Shown here: in pieces, positions 1 to 15,121 of the stretch
Layout of the letters: each line of letters starts with the position of its first letter
Numbering within the stretch: the stretch's first letter is position 1
NCBI GenBank assembly: GCA_004299545.1
Contig: SCRB01000002.1
Span: 1-15,121, forward strand
Source of the DNA: Rhizobiaceae bacterium
GTDB lineage: Bacteria; Pseudomonadota; Alphaproteobacteria; Rhizobiales; Rhizobiaceae
Direction of reading: 5' to 3'
Length of the DNA: 15,121 bases
Program-made: the position numbers and the translations under genes
The notes under the pieces: generated by a model
The model's input: only the letters and a program-made list of their open reading frames with translations
The model's database searches: none
What the model was told of the DNA's origin: nothing

Positions 1-526
1 CATGCCCGGCGGAGACGGGTCGCACCTCGGCACCGAGGAGCTTCATGCGGAAGACGTTGGGCTTCTGCCGGTCGACATCGGTTGCGCCCATATAGACAAC
101 GCAAGGGTAGCCGAAGCGAGCCGAAACGGTGGCCGAGGCGACGCCATGCTGGCCGGCCCCGGTTTCCGCGATGATGCGCTTCTTGCCCATGCGCCTGGCG
201 AGCAGGATCTGGCCGAGGCAATTGTTGATCTTGTGCGAGCCGGTGTGGTTCAGGTCCTCACGCTTGAAATAAATCTTCGCGCCGCCGAGATGGCGGGTCA
301 TCCCCTCGGCGAAATAAAGCTTCGAGGGCCGGCCGGCATAATAGGTCGAAAGCGCGCCGAGTTCCGCCTTGAAGGTCGGATCGCTTTTGGCGGCGTGCCA
401 TTCCCTTTCCAGATCGAGGATCAGCGGCATCAGCGTTTCAGCGACGAAACGGCCACCGAAAATGCCGAACATACCCTGATCGTCAGGGCCGGTGCGGAAG
501 GAGTTGGGTTCAGCCGGCTTGTTCAT
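1..526 (-). CDS. trpB: Tryptophan synthase beta subunit, N-terminal part (runs off the left edge)
   Basis: Catalyses the last step of tryptophan synthesis, joining indole and serine with pyridoxal phosphate in the cytoplasmic alpha2-beta2 complex. I translated the minus strand from the ATG at 526-524; it reads [10 protein letters not shown] and stays open to the window edge, 175 codons of the usual roughly 400. Seen directly: the N-terminal [17 protein letters not shown] block (residues 18-34), the PLP-lysine motif HTGSHKINN (Lys99, equivalent to Lys87 of the Salmonella enzyme) and the AETGAGQHG loop with Glu121, the usual catalytic glutamate. A good ribosome site, AGGAGA, sits about 6 bases before the ATG. 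The upstream gene on the same strand (1748-660) ends 133 bases away and is not a trp gene. trpA would be expected further left, outside the window. Confidence 0.97.
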
Positions 527-659
527 CGCCGATCTCCTGAAAATGCGGAAGCCAGTTCCCGTACGGATCAGGCACAAGAATGGCGATATTGCGGGGCGCG
601 TCAAAAGTAAACCGCCCGCCATGCCATCGGACAGCGGAAGGCGACGAATTTGGGTGCGT

Positions 660-1748
660 TCACCGGATGCCGATCGTCAAGGTGAATTTGCCGAAGGCGC
701 CGCCGGCCATCAGGTCGGGGCTGGCGCGCAGAACGTACCTGCCCGTCGCGGGAAGCGGAATCCGACCCGGCATCGGGCTATCGACATGACCGTCGGGATA
801 ACGGATCGTCACGCGCGCCGCCGGCCCCTCCAGCCGCCAGGTCAGGACCTGCCCGGACCGCGCGCCAAGGGCATAGGCGCAGCAATCGCCGCCCTTGCGG
901 AAGTTCCCCTCTACGATGGTGGTGTCTTTGCCCGGCGCGAAGCGGAGGGTGATCGGGCAATCCTCCCCGCCGTCCTCTCCGCCGGCCCCTTTGCCGGCAC
1001 CGCACGCAGACTTGGCCTGCACCGCGGCAAGGTCACGCAGGAAAGCCGGGTCGGCATAGGGAGAAAGGTCCTTCGAGCCAAGCGCGATCGGCTTGGCGCA
1101 GGCGGCGATCACGTGCGGGAAATCCGGCTGCACGACAAGCCCGCCCTTGGCGGCATCGAGCCAAAGAATTGCGCCTCCCTGCAACGGGTCCTGGCCGGAG
1201 ACGATGTCCTTGCATTCCTGCTGTTCGCCGGAGGCGGCGTAGCGCATCTGGTAGAGGCGGGTCAGCGCCGATGGAGCGGTCTCCCCGTCACGCGGCAGGA
1301 AATCCGGCTTGAAAACCCTTTTCCAGTCGATTTCGGTGCCGTTTGCAAGATCGATGGTGAGGGGATCGGCAGCATCTTCGGTCGGATAGGCGGTGGCGCA
1401 GAAATAGCTTTGCCGCACGTCGACCGAAAGATAACGCTCGGACACATAGCTCGCCGCGACCGTCTCCTCGAAGCTGTGGCGGTCCGGCGACTGGCCCGCC
1501 TGCCGGATCGCGGCGAGGCAATCGAGGCGCTGCTGGCGGTCGGCTTTCTCACGGCTGGCGAGCACCTTGTTGACCTGACGGCGCACTTGCGCACTCGCCC
1601 CGGCAACGAGCCGCGGATAGACGATTTTTCCCGGCGGACTGCGCAACGGCTTCACCGTTACCGTGGACCCGGCAAAGGCCGGGGCGCAGCCGAGCAGCAG
1701 GGCAAACAACACTTTCAAAGAAAGCGATCGGTTCAATCTTCTAAACAT
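660..1748 (-). CDS. Exported protein of unknown function, possible DUF3298/RsiV-like domain
   Basis: Function unknown. The predicted product is 362 residues and begins [20 protein letters not shown], a signal peptide with likely cleavage after AFA (about residue 27), so it should act in the envelope or periplasm. I chose the ATG at 1748; the same frame stays open to a TTG at 1808, but that would bury the signal peptide behind 20 extra residues. Residues about 75-150 ([34 protein letters not shown]) resemble the DUF3298/RsiV-type fold. The last 90 residues look like a beta-sandwich ([23 protein letters not shown]) reminiscent of pre-peptidase C-terminal or lysozyme-inhibitor-type domains. A CC pair lies in that domain. 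Domain names are from pattern memory and uncertain; that the gene is real and exported is well supported. Confidence 0.8.
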
Positions 1749-1813
1749 GGCCTTGGGGTGACAAGCTCGGGCGATCATCTCGCGCCGAAACGGCGGGTGG
1801 CCATCCAATCATG

Positions 1814-1851
1814 AAAAATGCCGGGGCGATAGCGCCATTTCCCGTGCCGGC
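1814..1851 (-). terminator. Likely rho-independent terminator of the ABC transporter operon
   Basis: Read on the minus strand, 4 bases after the ATPase stop codon there is an outer stem (GCCGG pairing with CCGGC, 1851-1847 with 1824-1820) enclosing an inner hairpin (GGCG-CTAT-CGCC, 1836-1825). One base after the outer stem comes a run of five T (1818-1814). The stem is interrupted by unpaired bases on one side, so strength is uncertain, but position and T-run fit a terminator. Confidence 0.5.
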
Positions 1852-1854
1852 CTT

Positions 1855-3048
1855 TCAATTCGCCGTGCTGTCGGCATAAAGAGCATCGCCCGTGGCCGGA
1901 TCGAAGAAATGAAGCTGGGCGGGATCGACCGTAACGAAGACCTGCTCGCCGGGGCGCAGGGCCACGCCCGCAGGGGCATTGAGCCTCAGCCGCCCCGCCT
2001 TTCCGTCACCCGACAGTGCCTTTTCCTCACCCTCTCCGAGGGCAACGACGGCTGAAGGATCCCTTACCGGCGCTGCCTCGGAATCGATATGGAACAGGAG
2101 ATGACTACCGAGATCCTCGCGATAAGCGACGGTGCCGCGGAGTGAGCGGCCCTCGGCGCTTCCGAGCGCGAGCGCCTCCGGACGAAAGCCGATGACGAGG
2201 GTCCGGTCGTGGTATCGCGCCAGTGCCGGCCGCTGCCGCACCGTTTCCGCTGGCAGCGAGATGACGGAACCGCCGAGATCGAGGGAGACAGCCTTGCCCT
2301 CTGCCCGCAAGCGCCCTTCGACGGCATTGATCGGCGGCGAACCAAGGAAGGTAGCGACAAAAAGGTTCACAGGCCGGTCGTAGAGCTCGCGCGGCGCGCC
2401 GACCTGTTGCAGGCGGCCGTGATTCATGACCGCGACCCGGTCGCCCATCGTCATCGCCTCGACCTGGTCATGAGTGACGTAGACGGTGGTGACGCCCGAA
2501 TCGCGCTGCAGCCGCGTGATTTCGGCGCGCGTCTGGCCGCGTAATCTGGCGTCGAGGTTGGACAGCGGCTCGTCCATCAGGAAGGCGGCAGGCTGGCGCA
2601 CGATGGCGCGGCCCATCGCGACGCGCTGGCGCTGCCCGCCGGACAGTTGCGCTGGCTTGCGCCCGAGATAGGGCTGCAATTCCAGAAGTTCCGCGGCCCG
2701 CTTGACACGGCTCTCGATCTCGGCCCTCGGCTGCCCCCTCACCCTCAGCGCAAAGCCCATGTTCTCAGCCACCGTCAGATGCGGATAAAGCGCGTAGCTC
2801 TGGAAGATCATGGCGACGTTGCGCGCGCGCGGCGCAAGATCATTGGCGACTTCGCCGCCGATCATCAGCCGGCCCGACGAGATGTCCTCCAGCCCCGCGA
2901 TCATCCTGAGCGCCGTCGTCTTGCCGCAGCCGGACGGCCCGACCAGCACCAGGAACTGGCCGTCCTCGACATCGAGATCGAGCCGGTCGACCGCAGGCAC
3001 GCCGTCGGCATAGATCTTGGAGACGTCCTCGAAGCGTATCTTCGCCAT
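1855..3048 (-). CDS. Sugar-type ABC transporter ATP-binding protein (MalK/UgpC family)
   Basis: The motor subunit that hydrolyses ATP on the cytoplasmic face to drive import by the two permeases encoded just upstream. The 397-residue product begins MAKIRFEDVSKIY. Visible motifs: Walker A GPSGCGKTT (37-45), Q-loop Gln83, signature LSGGQ (135-139), Walker B FLMDE (156-160), H-loop His193 in VTHD, and a C-terminal TOBE-type region (about 235-390) as in MalK/UgpC proteins. The frame is open upstream to 3465, but that part only shadows the permease gene. The ATG at 3048 follows a GAGAGGG ribosome site and starts 8 bases after the permease stop, so translation is probably coupled. Substrate cannot be told from this subunit. 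Family assignment is firm. Confidence 0.95.
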   Translation of the reverse strand: MAKIRFEDVSKIYADGVPAVDRLDLDVEDGQFLVLVGPSGCGKTTALRMIAGLEDISSGRLMIGGEVANDLAPRARNVAMIFQSYALYPHLTVAENMGFALRVRGQPRAEIESRVKRAAELLELQPYLGRKPAQLSGGQRQRVAMGRAIVRQPAAFLMDEPLSNLDARLRGQTRAEITRLQRDSGVTTVYVTHDQVEAMTMGDRVAVMNHGRLQQVGAPRELYDRPVNLFVATFLGSPPINAVEGRLRAEGKAVSLDLGGSVISLPAETVRQRPALARYHDRTLVIGFRPEALALGSAEGRSLRGTVAYREDLGSHLLFHIDSEAAPVRDPSAVVALGEGEEKALSGDGKAGRLRLNAPAGVALRPGEQVFVTVDPAQLHFFDPATGDALYADSTAN

Positions 3049-3056
3049 CGGCCCTC

Positions 3057-3938
3057 TCAGTTGACGCCCTTGGTCAGGCCCTGGACGAAATAACGGTTGA
3101 GAAAAAGCATCATCAATATGATCGGCAGCGTCGAAAAGTGCGCCAACGCGCCGAGCGTTCCCCACGATATGTCCTTGGTGCCGTAGGCCGAGAGCAGGGC
3201 GACCGAAATCGGCTTCGTCTCGGCGCGGGTCAGGAACATGGCGAAAAGGAAGTCGTTCCAGCTGAACATGACACAGAAGATGGCGCTGGCGATGATGCCG
3301 GGCACCACGGCCGGCAGCGCGACGGTGAGAAAGGTACGCCAGTCGTTGCAGCCGTCGGTCAGCGCCGCCTCCTCGATGGAGATGGGAGAAGAGCGGAAAT
3401 AGGCATACATCATCCACACCACGAAGGCGCAGTTGAGCGATGTGTTGATGAGGATCACCGCCCACCAGGTGCCAAGAAGGCCGATGTCACGCATCAGAAT
3501 ATAGAAGGGGATGAGTGTCGCTACCGGCGGCACGGTGCGTATCGCGAGAAAGAAATAGGCGACCCCGACGGCACCGCGGAATTTGGCGCGCGCCAGCGCA
3601 TAGCCGGCCGGCACGCCGAGAAGAAGGGAGAGAACGGTCGAGCCGAGGCTGATGACGATACTGCTCCAGAGAAGCTCGGGCAGGTCGAAATAACGGAAGA
3701 CGCTGGTGAAATTCGACCAGGTCGGCGAGAACAGCAATGTCGGCGGTGTCGCGAAAATATCGCGGGTCGGCTTGTAGGCGGTACTCAGCAGCCAAAGGAG
3801 CGGCAGCAGGAACACCGCCAGGATGACGATGACCGCCACGCGGCGGTAAAGAATGGAGCGGGCCTCGGCGCGCCGCATTCCCTGCTTTCCGGCACTTCCG
3901 GACGGAACGCCGCCGCCGCGCACGATCGCCCTAGCCAT
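3057..3938 (-). CDS. Carbohydrate-type ABC transporter permease (MalG-like)
   Basis: Inner-membrane permease that pairs with the product of 4863-3931 to form the import channel. The product is 293 residues with six predicted membrane helices (about 33-53, 91-113, 124-149, 156-178, 210-232, 261-280). The EAA loop that contacts the ATPase is present as EEAALTDG, with the conserved LP at 208-209. The ATG at 3938 overlaps the previous stop codon by 8 bases and has a GGAGG site, typical of translational coupling. An internal ATG (Met21, 3878) also has a purine-rich leader and would match the shorter N-terminus of many relatives, so the true start could be there. Confidence 0.94.
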   Translation of the reverse strand: MARAIVRGGGVPSGSAGKQGMRRAEARSILYRRVAVIVILAVFLLPLLWLLSTAYKPTRDIFATPPTLLFSPTWSNFTSVFRYFDLPELLWSSIVISLGSTVLSLLLGVPAGYALARAKFRGAVGVAYFFLAIRTVPPVATLIPFYILMRDIGLLGTWWAVILINTSLNCAFVVWMMYAYFRSSPISIEEAALTDGCNDWRTFLTVALPAVVPGIIASAIFCVMFSWNDFLFAMFLTRAETKPISVALLSAYGTKDISWGTLGALAHFSTLPIILMMLFLNRYFVQGLTKGVN

Positions 3939-4863
3939 TGCGTGCCTCCGCCGGCTTGACGACGAGGATGAAGATGACGGCCATGATACCGATCAGGATC
4001 GTCATCACGCTGGCGATCGCCGAGGCGAAGCCGACATTGAAGAATTGCAGGCCCTGCTTCACCGAATAGATCATCAGCGTGTCCGTCGCGTCGCCCGGCC
4101 CGCCGCCGGTCGAGACGAAAATGATGTCGAAGACCCGGAAGGCGTCCATCATGCGTAGCACCAGCGCCAGGAATGTTGACGGCAGCAGGAGGGGCAGGAC
4201 GACGATGCGGAAGCGCTGCAAAGGCCGCGCGCCGTCGACCTGGGCGGCCTCCAATATGTCGGTCGGCAGCGATTTCAGGCCGGCAAGCAGGATCAGCGCC
4301 ATCAGCGGCGTCCATTCCCAGACATCGATCATGATGATCGTCATCAGCGCCGAAGAGGTTTCACCGAGGAAACCGTGCTCGCCAGAAAGGCCCCATTCCG
4401 CGGCGAAATAGCCGATGGCGCCATAATCCGGGCTGAGCATGGCCTTGAAGATCAGCCCGACCACGAGCGGCGTCACCGTGACCGGGATCAGGAGCAGGCT
4501 GAGGCAGATCCGGTTGAACCGGTCGTCGCGCCACAGGAGCAGCGCGAGGCCGAGGCCGAAGAGAAATTCGAGCGCCACCGCGCCGAAGGTGAAGAGGAAG
4601 GTGTTGACGAGCGCGGTCCGAACCGTGGTGTCGCTGAACAGCGCGCGATAATTGTCGAGGCCGACATAGCTCGTGCTCGCCGGCCTCAACAGGCTGTAGT
4701 CGAAGAAGCTGTAGACAATGCCCTGCGCCAGCGGCCAGAGCGCGATCAGTACGACATAGACGATCGCCGGCGCGACCATGAGCAGGAGGAAGAGCCGCCG
4801 TCTGGTCCGATAGGGCATGGCGTTTCGCGGGGAACGGGAGATCGGCAGGGCGAGATCGGTCAT
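3931..4863 (-). CDS. Carbohydrate-type ABC transporter permease (MalF-like)
   Basis: First of two inner-membrane permeases of the importer. The product is 310 residues with six predicted membrane spans (about 24-46, 86-110, 121-141, 172-196, 219-237, 282-302). It carries the EAA cytoplasmic-loop motif (LEAAQVDGARPLQRF, then LP at 223-224), which docks with the ATPase. The length is that of the six-helix UgpA/MalF-type subunits without the large periplasmic loop of E. coli MalF. The start at 4863 has GAGG close upstream; Met16 is possible but lacks a ribosome site. It lies 113 bases after the binding-protein gene, separated by a strong hairpin, and overlaps the next permease by 8 bases. Confidence 0.94.
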   Translation of the reverse strand: MTDLALPISRSPRNAMPYRTRRRLFLLLMVAPAIVYVVLIALWPLAQGIVYSFFDYSLLRPASTSYVGLDNYRALFSDTTVRTALVNTFLFTFGAVALEFLFGLGLALLLWRDDRFNRICLSLLLIPVTVTPLVVGLIFKAMLSPDYGAIGYFAAEWGLSGEHGFLGETSSALMTIIMIDVWEWTPLMALILLAGLKSLPTDILEAAQVDGARPLQRFRIVVLPLLLPSTFLALVLRMMDAFRVFDIIFVSTGGGPGDATDTLMIYSVKQGLQFFNVGFASAIASVMTILIGIMAVIFILVVKPAEARNG

Positions 4864-4903
4864 TGCCTCTTTCGGGGTCGCACTCGGCAGTCACGGACAA
4901 AGC

Positions 4904-4922
4904 GACCGGCGCAAAGCCGGTC
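4904..4922 (-). other. Hairpin between binding-protein and permease genes
   Basis: A perfect 7-base inverted repeat, GACCGGC at 4904-4910 and GCCGGTC at 4916-4922, with a 5-base loop. It sits in the 113-base gap after the solute-binding-protein stop codon. Such hairpins in ABC operons (as between malE and malF) protect or partly terminate the upstream message so that the binding protein is made in excess. That role here is inferred. On the minus strand GCTTTGTCC follows, too few T for a strong terminator. Confidence 0.55.
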
Positions 4923-4976
4923 GGGAAATGAGGCATGATCGGCTGCGGCAGGCAAGCCCGCCGCTGTCCCGGCCCA

Positions 4977-6266
4977 TCATTTGAACAGCTTGACGACCTT
5001 CGCCTGCGCCGCGTCGAGCACCGATTTCGGATCGCCATTGCCGACCAGTGCGGCGTTGACGGCGGTGCCGAGCGCATCCTGGATTTCCGGATATTGCGGG
5101 ATGCGTGGCCGGAAATCGCCGTTGCCCTTTTCGAAGGCTTCCGCCACGACCGGCAGGAAAGGATATCTCTTCAGGAGATCGGGATCGGTCAACTCGCTCT
5201 TGCGGATATAGGAACCGGCGCCGCGCATGTTCATTTCCTTGTGGGCGGGCCGCGAATCGATCCATTTGATGAAATCCCAGGCTGCGGCTTTCTCGGCGTC
5301 GCTGATGTCGGCGTTTATGGCAAGGCCCCAGCCGCCGATCCCGTATTGAGGCGGCACGCCCTTCGCCGTCGGCGGCAGCTTGATGCCGACCTCGCCGACC
5401 ACCTTCGAGATTTTCGGATTGTCGTAATCGGCGGCCCCGACGGACCAGGTCTGCATGTTCGCGACAAGGCCCTGGCGGAAGCTCTCCTCGCGGCCGCCCC
5501 AGTCGTAATCGGCGGCTCCTGGAGGAGCATACTTATCGAAAAGCTCCTTATAGGTGGCGAGGCTTGCCACATTGGCATCGGAATTGAGCGTCGGCTTGCC
5601 GTCGTTGCCAAGGATCGAGCCGCCAAGCTGCATGTTGTACTGCATCCAGTCCTGCGCCGCGGCCGGACCCTTCTGACCGTTGGCGACGAAGCCGTAGATT
5701 TTGTTCGCCTTGTCGGTCAGCTTGGCGATGTTGGCGATATGCTCCTCCATCGTGTCGGCTGGCTTCAGTCCGGCCTTCTCGTAGAGATCCTTGCGGTAGG
5801 CGAGCACATTGGCGTAGCCGGCAAAAGGATAGGCGACCTGCTTGCCATCATAACCGCCAAGGGCGTGCATCAAACTCGGGTAGATATCGTCGAGGTCGAG
5901 TTCGGCGGTGTCACGCTTGATCCAGTCGGTGAGGTCGACCGTATAGCCCGCCTGCTCGAACTGGCCTGACCAGACGATGTCCATGGTGACGATGTCGTAA
6001 CCCTTGGTGTGGCCGACGAAATCGGCGATCGTCTTGGTCGCCAGTTCCGGATAGCTCATGATATCGACATCGACCTTGGCGCCTGTCGCCTTGGTGAATT
6101 CCGGAGCCATGTCGGCGAGCACGCGGGCGAACTGGTCGTTCTCGCAGGCGATGGTCAGCGTCACGCCGTCATGGCGTGCCGGGGCGGCGAAAACGGCGGC
6201 CGGAAAGGCCGCCATGCAGCAGGTGAGAAGCGCGAGGCGATACCCCCGAAGCGTTTTGGATTTCAT
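4977..6266 (-). CDS. Periplasmic solute-binding protein of the carbohydrate-type ABC importer
   Basis: Captures the substrate in the periplasm and delivers it to the permeases. The product is 429 residues, beginning MKSKTLRGYRLALLTCC, with a signal peptide probably cut after VFA (residue 27). The cysteines in it do not form a good lipobox, so a soluble periplasmic protein is expected. The body fits SBP family 1/8: an early LTIACENDQFARVLADMAPEF segment, an ATGAKVDVDIMSY hinge region and a late AAWDFIKWI helix. I chose the ATG at 6266, which has AAGGGG about 6 bases upstream; the frame is open to 6326, but the extra 20 residues would hide the signal peptide. First gene of the transporter operon, divergent from the questin-oxidase-like gene. 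Ligand cannot be read from the sequence. Confidence 0.94.
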   Translation of the reverse strand: MKSKTLRGYRLALLTCCMAAFPAAVFAAPARHDGVTLTIACENDQFARVLADMAPEFTKATGAKVDVDIMSYPELATKTIADFVGHTKGYDIVTMDIVWSGQFEQAGYTVDLTDWIKRDTAELDLDDIYPSLMHALGGYDGKQVAYPFAGYANVLAYRKDLYEKAGLKPADTMEEHIANIAKLTDKANKIYGFVANGQKGPAAAQDWMQYNMQLGGSILGNDGKPTLNSDANVASLATYKELFDKYAPPGAADYDWGGREESFRQGLVANMQTWSVGAADYDNPKISKVVGEVGIKLPPTAKGVPPQYGIGGWGLAINADISDAEKAAAWDFIKWIDSRPAHKEMNMRGAGSYIRKSELTDPDLLKRYPFLPVVAEAFEKGNGDFRPRIPQYPEIQDALGTAVNAALVGNGDPKSVLDAAQAKVVKLFK

Positions 6267-6292
6267 TGTTGTTCCCCTTGAGCGTTTGTGAA

Positions 6293-6322
6293 AATCTAGC
6301 GCCGAATTCCCGTATTTGGCAA
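6293..6322 (-). promoter_or_regulatory. Candidate sigma-70 promoter for the ABC transporter operon
   Basis: On the minus strand, TTGCCA (6322-6317; five of six matches to the -35 consensus) is followed after 18 bases by TAGATT (6298-6293; four of six for -10). This puts the transcript start near 6286, about 20 bases before the ATG. The sequence AATTGTTTGATTT lies just upstream of the -35 and TCACAAACG overlaps the expected start point; both have a near or exact second copy elsewhere in the intergenic regions of this locus. Confidence 0.4.
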
Positions 6323-6456
6323 GCAATTGTTTGATTTTTGACAGATTCCAACATTTATGCCTGGATTGCGAGGGGAGACAGGGCCATATCAGCCTCGTTG
6401 GCTTGGAAAGAAGCTCGTTTGTGAGTTAATTTGTGTACTTCCGTTTGGATTAGTCC

Positions 6457-6484
6457 TTGTGACGCGAAACGGTTGGCATATTGT
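6457..6484 (+). promoter_or_regulatory. Weak candidate promoter for the questin-oxidase-like gene
   Basis: TTGTGA (6457-6462) and TATTGT (6479-6484) are 16 bases apart, each matching four of six consensus positions. They lie about 50 bases before the ATG at 6533. The rest of the 266-base gap 6267-6532 holds no convincing gene. Confidence 0.25.
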
Positions 6485-6532
6485 TTTCCGATCGAATGGC
6501 CGGGCGACCGGGCAGACAAGAGGAGGCTGGAT

Positions 6533-7576
6533 ATGGTTTCTGCGCAAAGGCGCGCGTCGTTCGGCGAAGATGCCATGAATGAATATATCCGCCTGTCGGG
6601 CCGCTTCAGCGTCGAATTCCCGGTGATGCTCGCCAACCACCTGCCGATGGTGCTTTTTGCCCTCGATCGGATGGGGGCGGATGCGGAGCGACTGAAAGCC
6701 TATGGCGCGATCTACGAGCGCGACAACGGCCTGGTCCCCGTCCCTGCGCCGGTCCGCCCGGTGACACCGGAGAATTTCAACGACGGGCTCGGCGACCGCA
6801 GCCGCGAGGCCGATTACCGTCTCTTCTTCGCCGAACGGGTGCGAAGCCGCGGCGCTGCCCAAGTGGCGCAGGACTACATGCCGCGCTTCATGCCGGGCTT
6901 TACGGCAAGCGCCTTTCACGCCTTTATGCGCACCGCCTATGCGGCGGCCCGCCGCGACGAAGAGGAAATCGCCGTGGGGCTCGCCTACTGGGCGACGTGT
7001 TATCTGGAGCTCGGCCGCGCCACCGGCGCCCGGCCGACAACCGTCAACCCGCTCGATACGCTGCTCTATATGTACGGCCCCGACAGTTTCCATCATATCG
7101 TGCCCGAAAGCGATCTGCTCTGGCACAATATGCGCGCGGTCGCCGCGCTCGACGATTTCAGGCCGGTCGTAGACATGCTGGAGATCCGGCCGGACACGCT
7201 GAAGCGGATGGCGGAAGTGTCACTGGTGCTCTTTGCGAGTACATTCGATTTCGCTGCGCTGCATGCGCTGACCGGCTGCCACTGGATTAGGATGATGGCG
7301 CCGATCACGCCTAATGTCGACGAGGCGTTGCGCTATTTCTGGCAAGGCATCACGGCGCTGGTGCCGAAGATCGGCTTTCCCGAACTGCTTGCTCCCGACG
7401 CAATCGAGGCAATGCGCCGCACGCGGGCGCCGGGCTGGCCGGAAATCTTCCGCGCCGCCGTCGCCAGCAATGACGAGCACGACCTCAGTCTGACCTTTTC
7501 CGCCTCCGAGGAGGAGAAGATCTATGGCGATCCGCTCTACCGCGTCGTGGCGGCAAAAAGGCTCGGCCTGGCATGA
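6533..7576 (+). CDS. Questin-oxidase-like family protein (DUF4243)
   Basis: The product is 347 residues and resembles the questin oxidase-like family, named for the fungal enzyme that opens the anthraquinone ring of questin by a Baeyer-Villiger-type oxidation; the bacterial members have no established role that I know of. Supporting segments: FPVMLANHLPMVLFALDRMG near the N-terminus (30-48), PGFTASAFHAFMRTAYAA and EEIAVGLAYWATCYLELG in the middle, and a later FDFAALHALTGCHWIRM block rich in His. The HLPM and AFH histidines are of the sort conserved in the family. The ATG at 6533 is well supported by GAGGAGG 5 bases upstream; the frame is open from 6431. It is divergent from the ABC operon and ends 13 bases from the convergent dehydrogenase gene. 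No signal peptide or membrane segment is visible. Family call is from sequence pattern; function is open. Confidence 0.8.
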   Translation: MVSAQRRASFGEDAMNEYIRLSGRFSVEFPVMLANHLPMVLFALDRMGADAERLKAYGAIYERDNGLVPVPAPVRPVTPENFNDGLGDRSREADYRLFFAERVRSRGAAQVAQDYMPRFMPGFTASAFHAFMRTAYAAARRDEEEIAVGLAYWATCYLELGRATGARPTTVNPLDTLLYMYGPDSFHHIVPESDLLWHNMRAVAALDDFRPVVDMLEIRPDTLKRMAEVSLVLFASTFDFAALHALTGCHWIRMMAPITPNVDEALRYFWQGITALVPKIGFPELLAPDAIEAMRRTRAPGWPEIFRAAVASNDEHDLSLTFSASEEEKIYGDPLYRVVAAKRLGLA

Positions 7577-7589
7577 CGCCGGCCGATCC

Positions 7590-8363
7590 CTACGTCATGT
7601 AGACGCCGCCGGTGACATTGATCCCCTGCCCGGTCATGAAGCGCGCCGCGTCGGAGCACAGGAACACGACGAGTCCGGCGATGTCGTCCGGTTCCTCGAT
7701 CCTGCCGAGCGGCGTCTGGCGCACATAGTCTTCGAGTACCTCGGCCGGCGTCATGCCGCGCAGGCTCGCCTCCCACTCGACCTCGCGCGACTGCATCGAG
7801 GTTTTCACGAAGCCGGGGCAGACGGCGTTGACCCGGATGCCGGCCGGCGCCAGTTCCCGCGCAAGGGCCTGCGTCCAGCCGAGGACGGCGAACTTGCTGG
7901 CCGAATAATGCGCCAGAAGCGGCGCTCCGACCTTGGCTGCGAGCGAGGCGGTATTGACGATCACGCCTTGGCCACGCTCGAGGAAATAGCGCGCCGCGAT
8001 CTGGTTGGTCAGGAAAATGCCGCGCGTGTTAACGGCGAAGTTGAAGTCCCATTCGGCATCGGTCAGATCGACCGCGCGCGCCATGGATGAAACGCCGGCG
8101 TTGGCGATCGCGATGTCGATCTTGCCGAGCGCAGCCATTGCTTCGCCGAACGCCGTTTCCACCGAGGCCCGTTCGCGCACGTCGATCCTCGCGGCGATGC
8201 CGTCGATTTCCGCCGCCGCCTTGCGCGCGCCATCGAAATCGAGATCGGCGATGGCGACCCGCACGCCATGCGCGGCGAGCGCACGCGCGATCGCCCGGCC
8301 GATACCCGTCGCGCCGCCGGTCACGAACGCAGATTGCCCTTTGAGTTCCGCCGCAAGCGTCAT
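7590..8363 (-). CDS. SDR-family NAD(P)-dependent oxidoreductase
   Basis: Short-chain dehydrogenase/reductase of the classical type, 257 residues, cytoplasmic. Cofactor motif TGGATGIG (15-22) is present; Asp40 at the end of the second strand suggests preference for NAD over NADP. NAG is at 88-90, and the catalytic tetrad is complete: Asn112, Ser140, Tyr153, Lys157 (YSASK). The PG motif after the active site and the C-terminal VTGG typical of SDRs are also present. I chose the ATG at 8363 because GGAGA lies 5 bases upstream; an ATG at 8375 and a GTG at 8381 are in frame without a ribosome site. It is divergent from the DeoR-type regulator, so probably controlled by it, and may oxidise a polyol or sugar imported by the neighbouring transporter. 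Substrate is inferred only. Confidence 0.93.
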   Translation of the reverse strand: MTLAAELKGQSAFVTGGATGIGRAIARALAAHGVRVAIADLDFDGARKAAAEIDGIAARIDVRERASVETAFGEAMAALGKIDIAIANAGVSSMARAVDLTDAEWDFNFAVNTRGIFLTNQIAARYFLERGQGVIVNTASLAAKVGAPLLAHYSASKFAVLGWTQALARELAPAGIRVNAVCPGFVKTSMQSREVEWEASLRGMTPAEVLEDYVRQTPLGRIEEPDDIAGLVVFLCSDAARFMTGQGINVTGGVYMT

Positions 8364-8388
8364 CCGACTCTCCATTGTCACGAATCCA

Positions 8389-8406
8389 CGAAAACAAACA
8401 ATTTCG
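8389..8406. promoter_or_regulatory. Candidate operator half-sites CGAAA/TTTCG
   Basis: In the SDR/deoR divergent gap, CGAAA (8389-8393) and TTTCG (8402-8406) form an inverted pair 8 bases apart, 26 bases upstream of the SDR start codon. Several DeoR-family regulators (for example GlpR) use TTTCG-like boxes, so a link to the adjacent regulator is reasonable. The pair is short and could be chance. Confidence 0.3.
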
Positions 8407-8415
8407 CTCTTTGCA

Positions 8416-8438
8416 ACATAATCCGTGTTCGATTATGT
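8416..8438. promoter_or_regulatory. Perfect 8-base inverted repeat, candidate regulator operator
   Basis: ACATAATC (8416-8423) and GATTATGT (8431-8438) are exact reverse complements separated by 7 bases, centred in the 129-base gap between the divergent SDR and DeoR-family genes. Both arms contain a -10-like CATAAT, one on each strand, so a bound regulator could block transcription in both directions. Binding by the adjacent DeoR-type protein is inferred. Confidence 0.45.
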
Positions 8439-8492
8439 GTGATTTGGCGAAGCGCCCGAAGATGGCGCCGGAACGAAGATGGACGCCAGACG

Positions 8493-9350
8493 ATGAGCGA
8501 CGCGGTGCAAACGGAATTCGGACGGGCCGGCGCGCCGGCACACCCGGGGGCTCAGGGCCGCCTGCCGCCGCAGGTCCGCCAGTCGCGCATCGTCGCGGCG
8601 GTGCAGGCGGCTGGCTTCGTCGCCGTCGCCGATATAGCAGCCGACCTGTCCGTTTCGGACATGACGATCAGGCGCGACCTGATCGAACTCGAGCGCGAGG
8701 GGCTGGTCGAGCGGACGCATGGGGGCGCAATCGCGGCGGAAGGTGCGGCTGGGCATCCCGTCGATCAGGTCGAACCCGAATTCGAGGCGAGGCTCAGGCG
8801 CAATCGCGACACCAAGGAGCGCATCGCGCGGGCGGCGCTCGCGCTCATGGAAGGGCAGCGGACGGTAGCGCTCGATGTCGGCACGACCACGTTCCTGCTG
8901 GCGCGGCATCTTGCCGGGCAGCCCGGCATCCGTGTCTTCACCAACAGCCTGCGCATCGCAGGCGTGCTCGGCGCCGGCCGGGGCGAAGTCTACATCGCCG
9001 GCGGGCAGATTCGTGGCGACGAGATGACGGTCTGCGGCCCCATGGCGGTAGCGGAATTCGAGCAGCTCTGGTTCGACATTGCCTTTCTCGGCGTCTCCGG
9101 CATCACCGAAGACGGGCTGTTCGACTATTCGATGGACGACAGCGAAATGAAGCGCGCTTATGTGCGCCGCGCGACGCGCAAGGTGCTCCTGTGCGATTCC
9201 TCGAAATTCCAGCGCATGTCGCTCGTGCGTATCGCTGCGCTTGCCGACATCGACGTGATGATAACGGACGCGCCGCCGCCGGCCGGTCTCGCGGCAGCGC
9301 TCGCCGCTGCGAAAGTCGGCATCCTGGTCGCCGACAGGGCGAAGGCATGA
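8493..9350 (+). CDS. DeoR/GlpR-family transcriptional regulator
   Basis: DNA-binding repressor of a carbohydrate locus; the family usually releases DNA on binding a phosphorylated sugar intermediate. The 285-residue product has an N-terminal winged helix (about 29-80: RQSRIVAAVQ, VADIAADLSVSDMTIRRDL, VERTHGGA) and a DeoR C-terminal sensor domain with the DVGTTT sugar-phosphate loop, FTNS and YIAGG segments. The first roughly 25 residues, rich in Gly, Ala and Pro, extend beyond the usual family N-terminus, but no later start codon fits before the HTH. The ribosome site is weak (GGA). First gene of a plus-strand run with the BtpA-like and kinase genes, so autoregulation of that run and control of the divergent SDR gene are likely. 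Confidence 0.93.
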   Translation: MSDAVQTEFGRAGAPAHPGAQGRLPPQVRQSRIVAAVQAAGFVAVADIAADLSVSDMTIRRDLIELEREGLVERTHGGAIAAEGAAGHPVDQVEPEFEARLRRNRDTKERIARAALALMEGQRTVALDVGTTTFLLARHLAGQPGIRVFTNSLRIAGVLGAGRGEVYIAGGQIRGDEMTVCGPMAVAEFEQLWFDIAFLGVSGITEDGLFDYSMDDSEMKRAYVRRATRKVLLCDSSKFQRMSLVRIAALADIDVMITDAPPPAGLAAALAAAKVGILVADRAKA

Positions 9351-9438
9351 GCAGGCGCCGCCCGGGATGTACGGTCGAACAGAATTGAAATGGATCCGGA
9401 GCCGGACACGGCGACCCGTAGCAATCAGGAGAGAGAAA

Positions 9439-10239
9439 ATGGTGTTCGATTTCTTCGGCGCGAAGAAGAAGGTCGTGATCGCGATGGCGCATATTGGCGC
9501 CTTGCCGGGAGCGCCGCTTCATGACGCGAAAGGCGGCGTCGCCAGGCTGGTCGACGGCGTGCTCGCGGATGTCGAGAAGCTTCAGGCAGGCGGTGTCGAC
9601 GCCATCATGTTCGGCAACGAGAACGACCGGCCCTATGTGCTTGCCGCGCCGACGGAGGGCGTGGCGGCGATGACGGCGGTCGTCCAGGCCGTCAAGCCCG
9701 CGCTCAAGATCCCCTTCGGCGTCAATTATCTCTGGGACCCGAAGGCAAGCGTCGCGATCGCCGTCGCCACGGGAGCCGCTTTCGTGCGCGAGATATTCAC
9801 CGGCGTCTTCGCTTCCGATATGGGAGTATGGGCGCCGGATCTGGCAAGCGCCGCACGGCTCAGACACGATCTCGGCCGCGACGACCTCAAGATGCTCTTC
9901 AACATCAATGCCGAATTCGCCTATTCGCTGGACCAGCGGCCGATCGAGTTGAGGGCGAGAAGCGCCGTCTTTTCCTCGCTTGCCGACGCGATCCTCGTTT
10001 CTGGACCGATCACCGGCCAGGCAGCCGACCAGTCCGACCTGCGCAAGGTCGCCGAGACGGTGACGGAGGTGCCGGTCTTCGCCAATACCGGCGTGAACAT
10101 CGACAATGTCGCCGATGTCCTGTCGGTCGCGAGCGGTGTCATTATCGGCACGCATTTCAAGGTCGGCGGCAACACCTGGAACGCCGTCGACGGCGATCGT
10201 GTGAAGCGCTTCATGGACAAGGTCCAAGCGCTGCGCTGA
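9439..10239 (+). CDS. BtpA/SgcQ-family TIM-barrel protein
   Basis: The product is 266 residues and belongs to the BtpA/SgcQ family. BtpA was described in cyanobacteria as needed for photosystem I accumulation; SgcQ lies in an E. coli sugar-uptake cluster. Members are predicted TIM barrels and no reaction is firmly assigned. Seen: the opening AMAHIGALPGAP (15-26), GGVDAIMFGNENDRPY (about 51-66, with the conserved Asn-Asp pair), FGVNYLWDP (about 93-101), GAAFVREIFTGVFASDMGVW, ILVSGPITGQ, and the phosphate-site-like GVIIGTHFKVGG near the C-terminus. The ATG at 9439 follows AGGAG by 7 bases; the frame is open from 9367. It lies 88 bases after the regulator and 14 bases before the kinase, so a role on a phosphorylated sugar is plausible. 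A photosynthesis role is unlikely in this context. Confidence 0.92.
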   Translation: MVFDFFGAKKKVVIAMAHIGALPGAPLHDAKGGVARLVDGVLADVEKLQAGGVDAIMFGNENDRPYVLAAPTEGVAAMTAVVQAVKPALKIPFGVNYLWDPKASVAIAVATGAAFVREIFTGVFASDMGVWAPDLASAARLRHDLGRDDLKMLFNINAEFAYSLDQRPIELRARSAVFSSLADAILVSGPITGQAADQSDLRKVAETVTEVPVFANTGVNIDNVADVLSVASGVIIGTHFKVGGNTWNAVDGDRVKRFMDKVQALR

Positions 10240-10253
10240 GGAGGCTTCTCCCC

Positions 10254-11747
10254 ATGAGCCTCGTGCTCGGTCTCGACATCGGCACCACCTCGACGATCGG
10301 CATCCTGATCCGGTTGCCGGGTGAAGTGGTCGGCCTGGCGAGCCGGCCGGTCACTCTCTCCTCGCCACATGGCGGCTGGGCCGAGGAAGATCCGGAACAG
10401 TGGTGGCAAAACGTCTGCGCCATCACGCGGGAACTGCTTTCGTTGCCGGGCGTCGCGGCACGGGACATAAAGGCCGTCGGCGTCACCGGCATGCTGCCGG
10501 CCGTCGTCCTGCTCGATTCCGCGGGCAAGCTGATCCGGCCAAGCATCCAGCAGAGCGACGGGCGCTGTGGCGCCGAGGTCGAGGCGCTTCGCCGCGAAGT
10601 GAACGAGGCCGCCTTCACGCAACGCGCCGGCAACGGCGTCAACCAGCAACTCGTCGCCGCCAAGCTGCGCTGGATCGAAAGGCACGAACCGGAGAATTTC
10701 GCCCGCATCGCCACCGTCTTCGGCTCCTACGACTTCATAAACTGGCGGCTGACGGGGATTCGCGCCGCCGAGCAGAACTGGGCGCTCGAGGCCGGCTTCG
10801 TCGATCTGGGCACAGGGGAAATCGCCAACGATCTGGTGGCGCTCGCCCATGTGCCGCTCTCCGTCGTCCCGCCGAAGACGCTCTCGCACGCGATCCTAGG
10901 TGCAGTCGCCCCGGAAGCGGCGGAAGCGACCGGGCTTGTCGCGGGGACGCCCGTCATCGGCGGCGGCGCCGACCATGTCGCCTCGGCGCTCGGCGCCGGT
11001 ATCGTGGAACCGGGAGACGTGCTGCTCAAATTCGGCGGTTCGGTCGACGTGCTCGTCGCGACGGATCGCGCCGTGCCGGACCCGCGCCTCTATCTCGACT
11101 ACCATCTCGTTCCCGGTCTCTACATGCCGAACGGCTGCATGGCGACCGGCGGTTCGGCGCTCAACTGGTTCGTGGCGCAGTTTGCCGGTGGCGCGAAAAC
11201 GGAGGCCGAGGCGCGCGGCATTTCCGTCCACCAGCGGCTGGACGAACTCGCCGACATGGTTCCGGCCGGCGCGGACGGCGTCCAGATCCTGCCCTATTTT
11301 CTCGGCGAGAAGACGCCCATCCACGATCCCGACATACGCGGCCTGGTCTCGGGCCTCAGCCTCTCGCACGGGCTCGGCCATCTGTGGCGCGCGCTGCTCG
11401 AAGCCTATGGCTACGCCATCCTGCATCATGTGGAAGTGCTGCGCGACATGGGGCTCGCGCCCCGCCGCTATCTTGCCTCTGACGGGGGCGCGGCCAGCCG
11501 AGTCTGGATGCAGATCGTCGCCGACATCCTGCAGGCGCCGGTGGAGCGCCTGACGCGACATCCCGGCTCCTGCCTCGGCGTCGCCTGGACGGCGGCGGTG
11601 GGCATTGGCCTCGCCTATGATTGGCTGGGCGTCACCCGCTTTGCCGGCAGGGGCGAAACGATCAGCCCCGATCCGGCGAATGCCCGGATCTACCAGGCAG
11701 GCTACAGCACCTACCGCGACCTTTATCGCCGCATCGACGGCCGCTGA
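10254..11747 (+). CDS. FGGY-family carbohydrate kinase (xylulokinase-like)
   Basis: ATP-dependent kinase of a sugar or polyol, cytoplasmic, 497 residues, the usual FGGY length. Seen: N-terminal phosphate-binding LGLDIGTTS (5-13); the substrate-loop region SIQQSDGR (97-104); the GGGADH motif (236-241) where Asp240 is the expected catalytic base; and the second FGGY signature GLVSGLSLSHGLGHLWRALL in the C-terminal domain, followed by LASDGGAASRVWMQIVAD. The substrate loop has QQSD where xylulokinases usually have a tryptophan and NDGR, so the sugar may differ from xylulose. The ATG at 10254 follows GAGGAGG overlapping the previous stop codon; the frame is open from 9828, shadowing the BtpA-like gene. 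Last gene of the run; its stop is 12 bases from the convergent ClC gene. Confidence 0.94.
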   Translation: MSLVLGLDIGTTSTIGILIRLPGEVVGLASRPVTLSSPHGGWAEEDPEQWWQNVCAITRELLSLPGVAARDIKAVGVTGMLPAVVLLDSAGKLIRPSIQQSDGRCGAEVEALRREVNEAAFTQRAGNGVNQQLVAAKLRWIERHEPENFARIATVFGSYDFINWRLTGIRAAEQNWALEAGFVDLGTGEIANDLVALAHVPLSVVPPKTLSHAILGAVAPEAAEATGLVAGTPVIGGGADHVASALGAGIVEPGDVLLKFGGSVDVLVATDRAVPDPRLYLDYHLVPGLYMPNGCMATGGSALNWFVAQFAGGAKTEAEARGISVHQRLDELADMVPAGADGVQILPYFLGEKTPIHDPDIRGLVSGLSLSHGLGHLWRALLEAYGYAILHHVEVLRDMGLAPRRYLASDGGAASRVWMQIVADILQAPVERLTRHPGSCLGVAWTAAVGIGLAYDWLGVTRFAGRGETISPDPANARIYQAGYSTYRDLYRRIDGR

Positions 11748-11759
11748 GCACGCGATAAT

Positions 11760-13568
11760 CTACTTCGTGTGGTTCATATGATAGAATGTTGTCCGGCTAA
11801 CTTCCGCTTCGCGCTTCCTGCTGCGCACACGCAAAAGATCCTTCCACGCCACATAGCCGACGAGCCGCTGGTCTTCGCGGGAGACCACCGGCACATGGGC
11901 GATGTTGGCCTTGCTCATCTCGTCGATCAGGCCTTCGATGTACCAGTCGGGATAGGCTACCGGTACCGACCGGTTGCCACTGAGCAACTCCGCAAGAGTG
12001 GTTTTGCGATGCTTTCCCGCATGCCGCCATGCCAGGACGGTGGGCGGATTGAGGATGCCGAGGACATGGTTCTCCGCATCGACAACCGGGAAGCTCGGAT
12101 GCTTCGTCGTCGGGAGCGTAAGGAAGCTGGTCGCGTCGTGAAGCGTCATCGTCCCCGGCACGGTCTGGACTTCCGTCGCCATGATGTCCTTGACCTGGGC
12201 CAGGGCGAAGGGGTCGGCGTGCCATTCCCGCGTTACATGATGGCCGTGGCGCGCCACCTTTTCCGTCAATATGTCACGACGCATCAGCAGCACGGTGACG
12301 GTGTGTGCGGTAAAGCAGCACACGATCAGCGGCAGCAGCGCATGAATATTGCCGGTGACGCCAAGGGCGAAGAACGTCGCGGTGAGCGGGAGCCGCAACG
12401 TTCCGCCCAGCGTCGCCGACATGGCCAGAAGCGGCCAGAAACCGGGGCTCGCGGCGGGTAAAAAATGGATCGCGGCGGCGGCCATGGCCCCGCCGATCAT
12501 CATCAGGGGCGCGAGCGTACCGCCCGAGGTGCCGGAGCCGAGCGCAACGCCCCAGACGATCGTCTTCACCACAAACAGGCTGAGGCCCTGGTCCGGTCCG
12601 ACGTCGCCACGCAGCAAGGCTTCGATATTGGCGTAGCCGAGACCGAGGACATTGGGGTCGATCAGCCCGCCGACGCCAACGACGACGGCGCCAAGCGCAG
12701 GCCACCACATCCAGTGGATCGGCAGGCGATGGAAGCCGTCTTCCAGCGCATAGACGAGGCGGGTCAGGAAACCCGACAGGAGGCCGGCGCAGATGCCGAC
12801 GAGAACCCATGCTCCCGCATCGTAGAAGGAGATCGTGACGGTGCCGGTGAAGGGGAACAGGGGATCGGCAAGCCCGGTATAGCTGCGCAGGATGGCGGCA
12901 ACAACGCAGGCCGTCGCGACCGGCAGCAGGCTGCGCGGCGTCCATTCGAACAGAAGCAGCTCGAGCGCCAGCATGATCGCGGCGATCGGCGTGCCGAACA
13001 CGATGGTCATGCCGGCACAGGCGCCGGCGACCAGCAATGTCTTGCGTTCCGTGTCGCTGACCGGCAGCCATTGGGCGATCAGCGATCCGATGGCGCCTCC
13101 GGTCATGATGATCGGTCCTTCGGCGCCGAACGGCCCGCCCGTGCCGATGACGATCGACGACGATGTCGGCTTGAGGAGCGCTACTTTCAGATTGAGCCTC
13201 GAACGGCCGAGCAAAATGGCCTCGATCGCTTCCGGCAGTCCGTGGCCCCTGATCTGCTCCGTGCCGTAGCGCGCCATCAGGCCGACGATGATCGAGCCGG
13301 CAATCGGAATGAATACGACGAGCCAACCGAGAGGCGATTGGCTGAACGGGACATAGTCGAAGCTGAAACGGCCAAAATAGCAAAGGTTGGTGATAAGTTC
13401 GATCAACCGGAACATGGCGACGCCGACGACCGAAATGCAGACCGCCGCTATCGCAGCGATGCCCATGATGAAGAGCACGCGGCGATTGGCCGTGAAATCG
13501 CCCAGGTCGCGAATGCCCATAAGGGGAGAGCCACCTGGCGAAGGCAGGCGAGAACGACGGTCTGACAC
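11760..13568 (-). CDS. ClC-family chloride channel/antiporter with two C-terminal CBS domains
   Basis: Inner-membrane anion transporter, 602 residues. ClC signatures are present in variant form: GHGLPEA (108-114) for GSGIP, GAEGP (148-152) for GREGP with the gating Glu150 kept, and GTLAP for GxFxP. In the helix after FGTP, Glu203 aligns with E. coli ClC Glu202, while the internal proton-acceptor position (E. coli Glu203) is Leu204. Two CBS domains follow the membrane part (about 459-514 and 533-582), probably sensing a nucleotide or ionic condition. The start is a GTG at 13568 with GGAG about 11 bases upstream; an ATG at 13520 has no ribosome site. Whether it is a channel or an exchanger, and for which anion, cannot be settled here. 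It appears unrelated to the sugar locus. Confidence 0.93.
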   Translation of the reverse strand: MSDRRSRLPSPGGSPLMGIRDLGDFTANRRVLFIMGIAAIAAVCISVVGVAMFRLIELITNLCYFGRFSFDYVPFSQSPLGWLVVFIPIAGSIIVGLMARYGTEQIRGHGLPEAIEAILLGRSRLNLKVALLKPTSSSIVIGTGGPFGAEGPIIMTGGAIGSLIAQWLPVSDTERKTLLVAGACAGMTIVFGTPIAAIMLALELLLFEWTPRSLLPVATACVVAAILRSYTGLADPLFPFTGTVTISFYDAGAWVLVGICAGLLSGFLTRLVYALEDGFHRLPIHWMWWPALGAVVVGVGGLIDPNVLGLGYANIEALLRGDVGPDQGLSLFVVKTIVWGVALGSGTSGGTLAPLMMIGGAMAAAAIHFLPAASPGFWPLLAMSATLGGTLRLPLTATFFALGVTGNIHALLPLIVCCFTAHTVTVLLMRRDILTEKVARHGHHVTREWHADPFALAQVKDIMATEVQTVPGTMTLHDATSFLTLPTTKHPSFPVVDAENHVLGILNPPTVLAWRHAGKHRKTTLAELLSGNRSVPVAYPDWYIEGLIDEMSKANIAHVPVVSREDQRLVGYVAWKDLLRVRSRKREAEVSRTTFYHMNHTK

Positions 13569-13635
13569 TTATATGAACTCCGAATGACGGCGCGGGGAGG
13601 AGGCGCGGCCGATCGGTCGCGTCGTGATGCGACAT

Positions 13636-13646
13636 ATCACTGTGAT
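13636..13646. promoter_or_regulatory. Small palindrome ATCACTGTGAT, candidate operator
   Basis: An 11-base palindrome (ATCAC-T-GTGAT), with a further GTGAT half-site at 13624-13628 that also pairs with the central ATCAC. It lies 68 bases upstream of the ClC start codon. Such clustered half-sites are typical of operators, perhaps of the nearby MarR-type regulator, but no binding protein can be named. Confidence 0.3.
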
Positions 13647-13736
13647 TCCGCGGCGACAACGATCGCGTGACAAAAGCGCCATGCGTCAACTGGACGCGGT
13701 TTCCCGCGCCGGGTTCCGGCAAAATCCCAGCCATGC

Positions 13737-13844
13737 TAAAGCGCGTCGCGTTCAAACGGACTCACGCGACGCGCTTTATTTCCCTGTTTCCAAGCATGTC
13801 GTTATCCCGAAACCGCTGGATACTTTCGGGCGAGGCCGACATGC
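13737..13844. repeat. RIME-like rhizobial intergenic repeat with two palindromes
   Basis: The left half is a perfect 15-base inverted repeat (TAAAGCGCGTCGCGT at 13737-13751, its complement at 13764-13778) with a 12-base loop. The right half is a nested palindrome: GCATGTCG (13794-13801) with CGACATGC (13837-13844) outside and CCCGAAA (13806-13812) with TTTCGGG (13824-13830) inside. Span, double-palindrome layout and wording match my memory of RIME1, the Rhizobium-specific intergenic mosaic element. These are small non-coding repeats scattered between genes. It lies 47 bases before the MarR-family start codon, so its hairpins could affect that transcript. Confidence 0.75.
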
Positions 13845-13890
13845 GTGCTCCCGGCCCACAGGGACGCCATGCAAGAGGCGCGGAAAGACA

Positions 13891-14316: not shown

Positions 14317-14363
14317 GACGGCATACCGTTCCCGGAGCATGACGCCATTTTGCTGAACTTGCG

Positions 14364-15121
<758 letters not shown>

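Follow-up and report, generated by a model that had tools for sequence, protein, structure and literature searches.

A putative SDR-DeoR-BtpA-FGGY core with exchangeable importer genes at a candidate polyol catabolic locus of a Rhizobiaceae bacterium

The window analyzed here is a 15,121-nucleotide stretch of a Rhizobiaceae genome (assembly GCA_004299545.1, contig SCRB01000002.1, positions 1 to 15,121). Between 1855 and 11747 it carries genes for an ATP-binding cassette (ABC) importer with its solute-binding protein (SBP), a questin-oxidase-like protein (QOX), an SDR dehydrogenase, a DeoR-type regulator, a BtpA/SgcQ family TIM-barrel protein and an FGGY carbohydrate kinase (Table 1). Window proteins were compared with Pfam models at their curated cut-offs and with TIGR/NF models. 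An earlier note on this DNA had claimed nine genes in this interval, and all nine were observed in the profile search, every named family scoring above its Pfam cut-off. The two permeases reached 70 and 56 bits for BPD_transp_1, and the ATPase fell narrowly below the cut-off of the UgpC subfamily model (425.5 against 432 bits). The importer genes form a minus-strand run of SBP, two permeases and ATPase, with QOX divergent from SBP, while SDR is divergent from the DeoR-BtpA-FGGY run; both divergent promoter regions described in that note can be seen, at 6267-6532 (SBP/QOX) and 8382-8492 (SDR/DeoR). The starts of BtpA (9439), FGGY (10254) and DeoR (8493) were refined from the sequence and start context. 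QOX, translated here from 6575, probably starts at 6533, since the database copy of the same protein (P0121) has 347 amino acids.

Table 1. Genes and predicted operators of the locus, with window coordinates and profile or motif scores.
Feature	Position	Strand	Evidence
ABC importer ATPase, MalK/UgpC type	1855..3048	-	PF00005 (ABC_tran 105 bits), OB_MalK, TOBE_2
ABC permease 2	3057..3938	-	PF00528 (BPD_transp_1); 8-base overlap with permease 1
ABC permease 1	3931..4863	-	PF00528 (BPD_transp_1)
SBP, Arad_9887 (5IAI) subfamily	4977..6266	-	SBP_bac_1 127 bits
Weak candidate DeoR operator, SBP/QOX promoter region	6419..6440	+	10.0 bits
QOX, PF14027	6533..7576	+	88.2 bits vs cut-off 27, translated from 6575
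SDR dehydrogenase	7590..8381	-	PF13561/PF00106; adh_short_C2 198 bits
Predicted DeoR-type operator, tandem TGTTCGA..TGTGTGA, SDR/DeoR promoter region	8423..8444	+	21.2 bits
DeoR/GlpR-family regulator	8493..9350	+	PF08220 (HTH_DeoR 61 bits) + PF00455 (DeoRC 150 bits)
BtpA/SgcQ family TIM-barrel protein, 266 aa	9439..10239	+	PF03437 242 bits, TIGR00259
FGGY carbohydrate kinase, XylB-like, 497 aa	10254..11747	+	PF00370 (FGGY_N 176 bits) + PF02782 (FGGY_C 98 bits)

For comparison with relatives, the window genes were mapped onto the best 80 of 305 confirmed BtpA places (77-83% BtpA identity), a choice that skews the sample to close BtpA relatives. These loci come from Rhizobiales, other Alphaproteobacteria and some Enterobacterales; 18 have short flanks and 62 full flanks, and presence means presence inside the fetched flanks by identity thresholds chosen for this analysis. 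FGGY was found in 72/80 loci, SDR in 69/80 and DeoR in 77/80, corresponding to 57, 55 and 59 of the 62 full-flank loci. A HAD hydrolase gene was present in 48/80, mostly after FGGY, and none was found among the window proteins typed. Five loci (L035, L048, L049, L053 and L070) have no FGGY near BtpA; an FGGY of 62-63% identity lies elsewhere in each of those genomes, the next-best FGGY being at most 33% identical. Kaistia-type loci, once taken as proof of a kinase-free BtpA, were withdrawn as such because FGGY lies elsewhere in the same genomes. Importer kind, QOX, HAD and ATPase position differ between relatives. The presence counts, together with the FGGY genes elsewhere in five genomes, indicate that SDR, DeoR, BtpA and FGGY are the predicted core, and that importer and QOX are exchangeable additions. 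The earlier note had supposed that the genes act together, which holds for these four, kept together in most loci, but not for nine genes as an indivisible unit; the neighborhood search that it proposed, run here on the 80 BtpA loci, likewise recovered the core, with importers of two kinds and with QOX outside it.

BtpA 77-82% identical to that of the window also occurs in contigs labeled Enterobacterales (L022, from a metagenome-assembled genome, and L026, L051, L058, L064 and L067), which suggests either horizontal transfer of the core or mislabeled contigs. The layout of L084, labeled Martelella, is much like that of L022.

The importer is of two kinds. SBPs of the window kind were found in 24/80 BtpA loci and those of a second kind, sharing 22-29% identity with the first, in 39/80; two full-flank loci carry both. 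Three of the nine loci with neither SBP (L075, L079 and L095) carry window-type permeases at their cut ends, so that their SBP was probably missed, lying out of reach of the flank. QOX was observed in 16/21 full-flank loci with the window-type SBP, but in none of the 32 that have the other kind alone and in none of the 9 that have neither. A survey of 397 related genomes of the window's order, its own included, was performed with thresholds of E<=1e-100 for the window-type SBP, E<=1e-3 for QOX and E<=1e-60 for BtpA, which gave 23, 29 and 65 positive genomes, respectively. All 23 SBP-positive genomes, which include that of the window and span 10/142 genera, also hold QOX (23/23) and BtpA (23/23); the chance values for co-occurrence with SBP, relatedness being ignored, are 4e-32 for QOX and 2e-20 for BtpA. 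QOX lies within 15 kb of SBP in 22/23 genomes. QOX is therefore not core and follows the window-type importer. The protein belongs to the questin oxidase-like family (PF14027, 88.2 against 27 bits); the defining activity of the fungal questin oxidase is the oxidative cleavage of a ring in questin.

Two side observations concern the importer. In G082, the sole genome of the 23 in which QOX is remote from the window-type SBP, it is BtpA that has this SBP within 7 kb. At L133:2377-4036, genes for a ROK kinase and for a TIM barrel of the CutC family lie beside the importer, in a locus whose fetched stretch has no BtpA.

The candidate operator ties the two promoter regions together. A first motif guess was replaced by a motif learnt by expectation maximization from 50 dereplicated SDR/DeoR promoter regions. 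The learnt operator is a tandem direct repeat, TtaTGTTTGAtTTTGTTCGatt, with TGTTYGA repeats. When 103 sequences totaling 1.93 Mb were scanned, 119 sites scored 17 bits or more, 69 of them at SDR/DeoR. Among the other 50, 46 fall in the 420 bases before a mapped gene, 2 are inside a gene for the other kind of SBP and 2 are elsewhere. Such upstream stretches account for 8.2% of the sequence that remains; some of these 46 sites represent variants of one and the same core promoter, the ATPase label among them is loose, and the higher A+T of the stretches may explain part of the excess. Upstream of the window-type SBP, where the motif had not been trained, 25 dereplicated regions, still including near neighbors such as L044 and L073, were compared with dinucleotide shuffles: 18/25 exceeded the 99% shuffle level and 20/25 the 95% level, with training and test promoters drawn from the same loci and intergenic DNA being richer in A+T than genes, which favors such sites. 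A degenerate operator pattern, composed to fit the site of the window itself, matches exactly once in the 4.59 Mb assembly, at that site; with up to 2 mismatches it has 37 matches in the assembly, against 15 for a reversed control pattern. The regulator itself combines HTH_DeoR with a DeoRC sensor domain, placing it in the DeoR/GlpR family. A DeoR-type operator thus appears common to the core promoter and, in most relatives, to the importer promoter, and binding by DeoR is predicted at both. Shared control is supported to that extent, but the importer site of the window itself is weak.

The family membership of BtpA is clear (PF03437, 242.1 against 30 bits; TIGR00259, 242.6 against 153.4), and its AlphaFold2 model (pLDDT 93.6) points to a phosphate-type TIM barrel with the standard phosphate-binding half. 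A profile search with BtpA retrieved TrpA and, weakly, PcrB, and its Foldseek fold neighbors include dihydropteroate synthase and CutC (4r9x). A dihydropteroate synthase relative had been considered from a single-sequence match to 2y5j (E 0.008), which was not reproduced by the profile. A photosystem role was rejected because the equivalog model for the photosystem I biogenesis protein BtpA, NF045918, was missed (138.7 against 400 bits). Across 36 diverse members the polar or charged residues K11, H18, N60, D63, N96, R117, R167 and K241 are invariant, which makes the protein enzyme-like. Within the BtpA-picked loci BtpA shows higher conservation than SDR and FGGY, in part because of how those loci were chosen; it also does so, by a small margin, in QOX-picked loci holding BtpA. 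Family matches were found in 5/14 control genomes (E. coli, Synechococcus, Thermus, Thermotoga and Methanocaldococcus), three of the five above the cut-off. BtpA is probably an uncharacterised phospho-sugar enzyme.

Regarding the enzymes beside it, the best PDB relative of FGGY is 3ifr (621 bits). More specific labels were rejected: xylulokinase XylB (TIGR01312 equivalog, 318.7 against 380.25 bits), FGGY pentulose kinase (5C_CHO_kinase; TIGR01315 subfamily, 103.9 against 408.7) and L-ribulokinase (TIGR01234 equivalog, 108.2 against 583.25). For the D-ribulokinase kind, the comparison made was with the TIGR01315 model, whose cut-off was missed. The best PDB relative of SDR is the quinuclidinone reductase 3ak4 (349 bits), and the natural role of that biocatalyst may lie in such a pathway. 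SBP is 63% identical to Arad_9887 (PDB 5IAI), shares its fold and matches as Arad_9887-type, and the 5IAI crystal contains ribitol. SBP can accordingly be placed in the ribitol-binding Arad_9887 subfamily by sequence, and ribitol binding by the window protein is predicted. The earlier note had named sugar, polyol and aromatic glycoside panels for growth profiling; a ribitol-like polyol is now better supported than so open a choice, and an aromatic glycoside was set aside because no glycosidase is among the proteins typed.

Taken together, the locus is, by a narrow preference, best regarded as a polyol (pentitol-type) catabolic regulon in which BtpA/SgcQ would act on the phospho-sugar that SDR and the kinase produce. 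Computation establishes the gene families, the conservation of the module, the motif in common, the subfamily of the importer and the barrel fold; from these we infer all reactions, the substrate and repressor binding as follows. The CUT1-type ABC importer of the Arad_9887 subfamily would take up ribitol or a compound with a ribitol-like chain, SDR would oxidize the polyol to a ketose, and FGGY would phosphorylate the ketose to a phospho-sugar. BtpA/SgcQ, as an epimerase, isomerase or aldolase, would then convert the phospho-sugar to a central intermediate. The DeoR-type repressor would bind the tandem TGTTYGA repeats of the SDR/DeoR promoter region, in most relatives also upstream of the importer, and would presumably be released by the phospho-sugar. 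QOX may be an importer-tied, oxygenase-like accessory that acts on a non-sugar part or on a substrate variant. The order of import, oxidation, phosphorylation and a TIM-barrel step proposed in the earlier note is thus plausible, but its self-contained nine-gene unit is not sustained.

Several observations weigh against this regulon. The sugar of FGGY is not fixed, because the xylulokinase and pentulose-kinase cut-offs were missed, and the ribitol of the 5IAI crystal may have been bound by chance. If the ketose were D-ribulose, the BtpA step would be unexplained, because the known routes for ribitol and D-ribulose consist of a dehydrogenase and a D-ribulokinase, as described in the excerpted text of PMC12307932. 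Five loci pair BtpA with an Ldh_2 dehydrogenase in place of SDR, and neither SDR nor DeoR was found in the flanks of L044, L065 and L073. Four of the 50 training regions (L086, L089, L094 and L144) have no 17-bit site; 7/25 SBP-upstream regions, those of the window, L058, L133, L134, L135, L140 and L150, are under the 99% level, and the window's own site at 6419-6440 (10.0 bits) was matched by 3.2% of 2000 dinucleotide shuffles. Finally, only 10/23 genomes have QOX within 15 kb of BtpA; the two are farther apart on one contig in 4/23 (G082, G111, G222 and G417) and on different contigs in 9/23. That the two are shared by genomes yet often not neighbors argues against a single nine-gene unit and for a functional tie, provided that their co-occurrence is not due simply to the relatedness of the genomes.

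The genes that accompany QOX in relatives raise a different possibility. An FAD oxidoreductase is present in 20/21 full-flank loci with the window-type SBP, against 0/32 where the other kind stands alone and 0/9 where both are missing. In three genomes it shares a single open frame with QOX (L139:7652-10165, L144:8188-10806 and, on the minus strand, L145), which suggests coupled steps. An amidohydrolase, AmH14, whose nearest PDB relative is N-isopropylammelide hydrolase (314 bits), occurs in 12/21 window-type-SBP loci. Relatives passed the 8-oxoguanine deaminase model (621 against 532), and L095 passed that of allophanate hydrolase (AtzF; 661 against 511) and has a BiuH-like protein below the cut-off (277 against 370). 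BiuH-like and gamma-glutamyltransferase-like proteins are also carried by relatives; the amidohydrolases are called AtzB/AtzC-like here, and the allophanate hydrolase AtzF. A fused uracil ring cut at C4-C4a and N1 would yield allophanate. DUF4243 is the former name of PF14027. A DUF4243 domain is included in MinC of the pathway to the C-nucleoside minimycin, according to the sections of PMC8724604 drawn on here. The s-triazine-type hydrolases near QOX in relatives hint at a ribityl-type N-heterocycle as a possible substrate. It is conceivable, if somewhat unlikely, that the importer takes a conjugate of a ribityl-like chain and a urea-derived N-heterocycle (ribityllumazine, ribitylaminouracil, or a flavin-, pterin- or purine-like compound), that QOX, the FAD oxidoreductase and AtzB/AtzC-like amidohydrolases open the ring, that BiuH-like hydrolases and allophanate hydrolase complete its breakdown, and that the core uses the sugar. 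The constant pairing of QOX with SBP fits such a conjugate, as do the six of the 29 QOX genomes without the window-type SBP, which also have no BtpA match at E<=1e-60, three of the six QOX matches being weak (25-33% identity). Against it, QOX is the only one of these enzymes in the window, none of the s-triazine-type hydrolases or other extra genes of relatives being among the window proteins typed. AmH14 was not found in the window's own assembly, which is 85% complete; this empty result alone shows nothing. The only FAD-oxidoreductase-like gene there, a 41% partial at one end of a contig of 3.5 kb, was not counted. AtzF with a BiuH-like gene occurs in just 5/21 window-type-SBP loci. The five QOX regions with no window-type SBP nearby carry the hydrolases in L141 and L143, but not, as far as found, in L137, L138 and L147; L143 carries an NMT1-type binding protein, and the genome of L137 has a window-type SBP elsewhere. 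We know of no SBP ligand larger than ribitol, which also speaks against a conjugate. Use of triuret or biuret (TrtA, BiuH, AtzF) was rejected, these enzymes occurring in a minority of relatives and in none of the window proteins typed, as was riboflavin catabolism of the known kind, none of whose enzymes in the excerpted text of PMC12746152 (P450, thiamin-dependent decarboxylase, xanthine oxidase and Rieske enzymes) was among the proteins typed. A broader and more doubtful proposal is an unrecognised pathway that dismantles ribityl or polyol N-heterocycles (ribityllumazines, ribitylaminouracils and flavins), in which a ribityl-recognizing SBP would deliver the substrate, QOX and its FAD partner would oxygenate the ring, AtzB/AtzC/BiuH/AtzF-like enzymes would free nitrogen as allophanate, and SDR, FGGY and BtpA would use the polyol.

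An ordinary ribitol pathway, from ribitol through D-ribulose to D-ribulose-5-phosphate with BtpA as a mere helper or regulatory protein, is improbable. It would account for the ribitol in 5IAI and for the set of SDR, FGGY and DeoR, and SgcQ of E. coli was credited in 2026 with "PTS chaperone-like features" in the part of PMC13343008 used here. However, BtpA has enzyme-like invariant residues and is conserved above SDR and FGGY, and FGGY fails the pentulose-kinase model. That the genes are simply neighbors with no common function is very improbable: QOX, importer kind, HAD and ATPase position do vary and BtpA and QOX are often unlinked, but the core is conserved, the co-occurrence of 23/23 persists even when the genes are unlinked, and the operator is shared, so that for the core this explanation is largely refuted. 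The polyol regulon remains our preferred reading.

On the surrounding DNA, a 382-amino-acid open reading frame at 660-1808 (-) with no Pfam match adjoins the importer. The other flank (11760-14316 and 14364-15026) holds genes for a CLC chloride channel with CBS domains, a MarR regulator and a GDP-mannose-dehydratase-like protein; CLC has only distant matches of 24-25% in relatives (L135 and L149). ARAGORN found no tRNA in the window, and no match there passed the gathering threshold of any Rfam family.

With this locus BtpA acquires regular partners (SDR, FGGY kinase and DeoR operator) and a likely ligand class, which makes its reaction directly testable on the kinase product. The tie of QOX to the importer and, in relatives, to s-triazine-type hydrolases points to a heterocycle route of which no description was found among the papers searched; a ribityl-heterocycle pathway, if true, would assign BtpA a definite place in metabolism, as a phospho-sugar enzyme. 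In open-licence papers no description of this gene set was found, in agreement with the earlier statement that no defined pathway has this combination, nor was any described function for SgcQ/BtpA.

Known systems share parts of the arrangement. In the Klebsiella-type ribitol locus and the Citrobacter Rbl D-ribulose system, uptake of a polyol or pentulose likewise leads to an FGGY kinase, and in the Klebsiella-type locus a ribitol 2-dehydrogenase adjoins the kinase; unlike the window, they use a polyol permease or an ABC importer with an SBP of another family, and BtpA and QOX are not mentioned in the excerpts of PMC12307932. The window FGGY differs from this kinase setting in failing the pentulose-kinase model. 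The Sinorhizobium erythritol/adonitol/L-arabitol locus (mptABCDE, eryA, lalA-rbtABC) is likewise a rhizobial ABC polyol importer with a kinase, and adonitol (ribitol) is handled, but its gene names are others, with no BtpA or QOX among them in the portion of PMC3599248 consulted, in a comparison by gene lists. The R. rhizogenes locus L065 has an SBP near-identical to Arad_9887 together with QOX, FAD oxidoreductase, BtpA and FGGY; it differs from the window in two isochorismatase-like genes and an AtzF-like gene, SDR and DeoR not being found in its flanks. The E. coli sgc operon presumably has a DeoR-type regulator as well, SgcR. Its substrate and functions were called unknown in 2026, in the text available from PMC13343008. 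According to the same text, sgcABCEQX differs in PTS-like (phosphotransferase system-like) uptake, with an epimerase-like SgcE and a hydrolase-like SgcX in place of ABC importer, SDR and FGGY, and resembles the window in SgcQ, a member of the BtpA family, and in a suggested link to pentitols.

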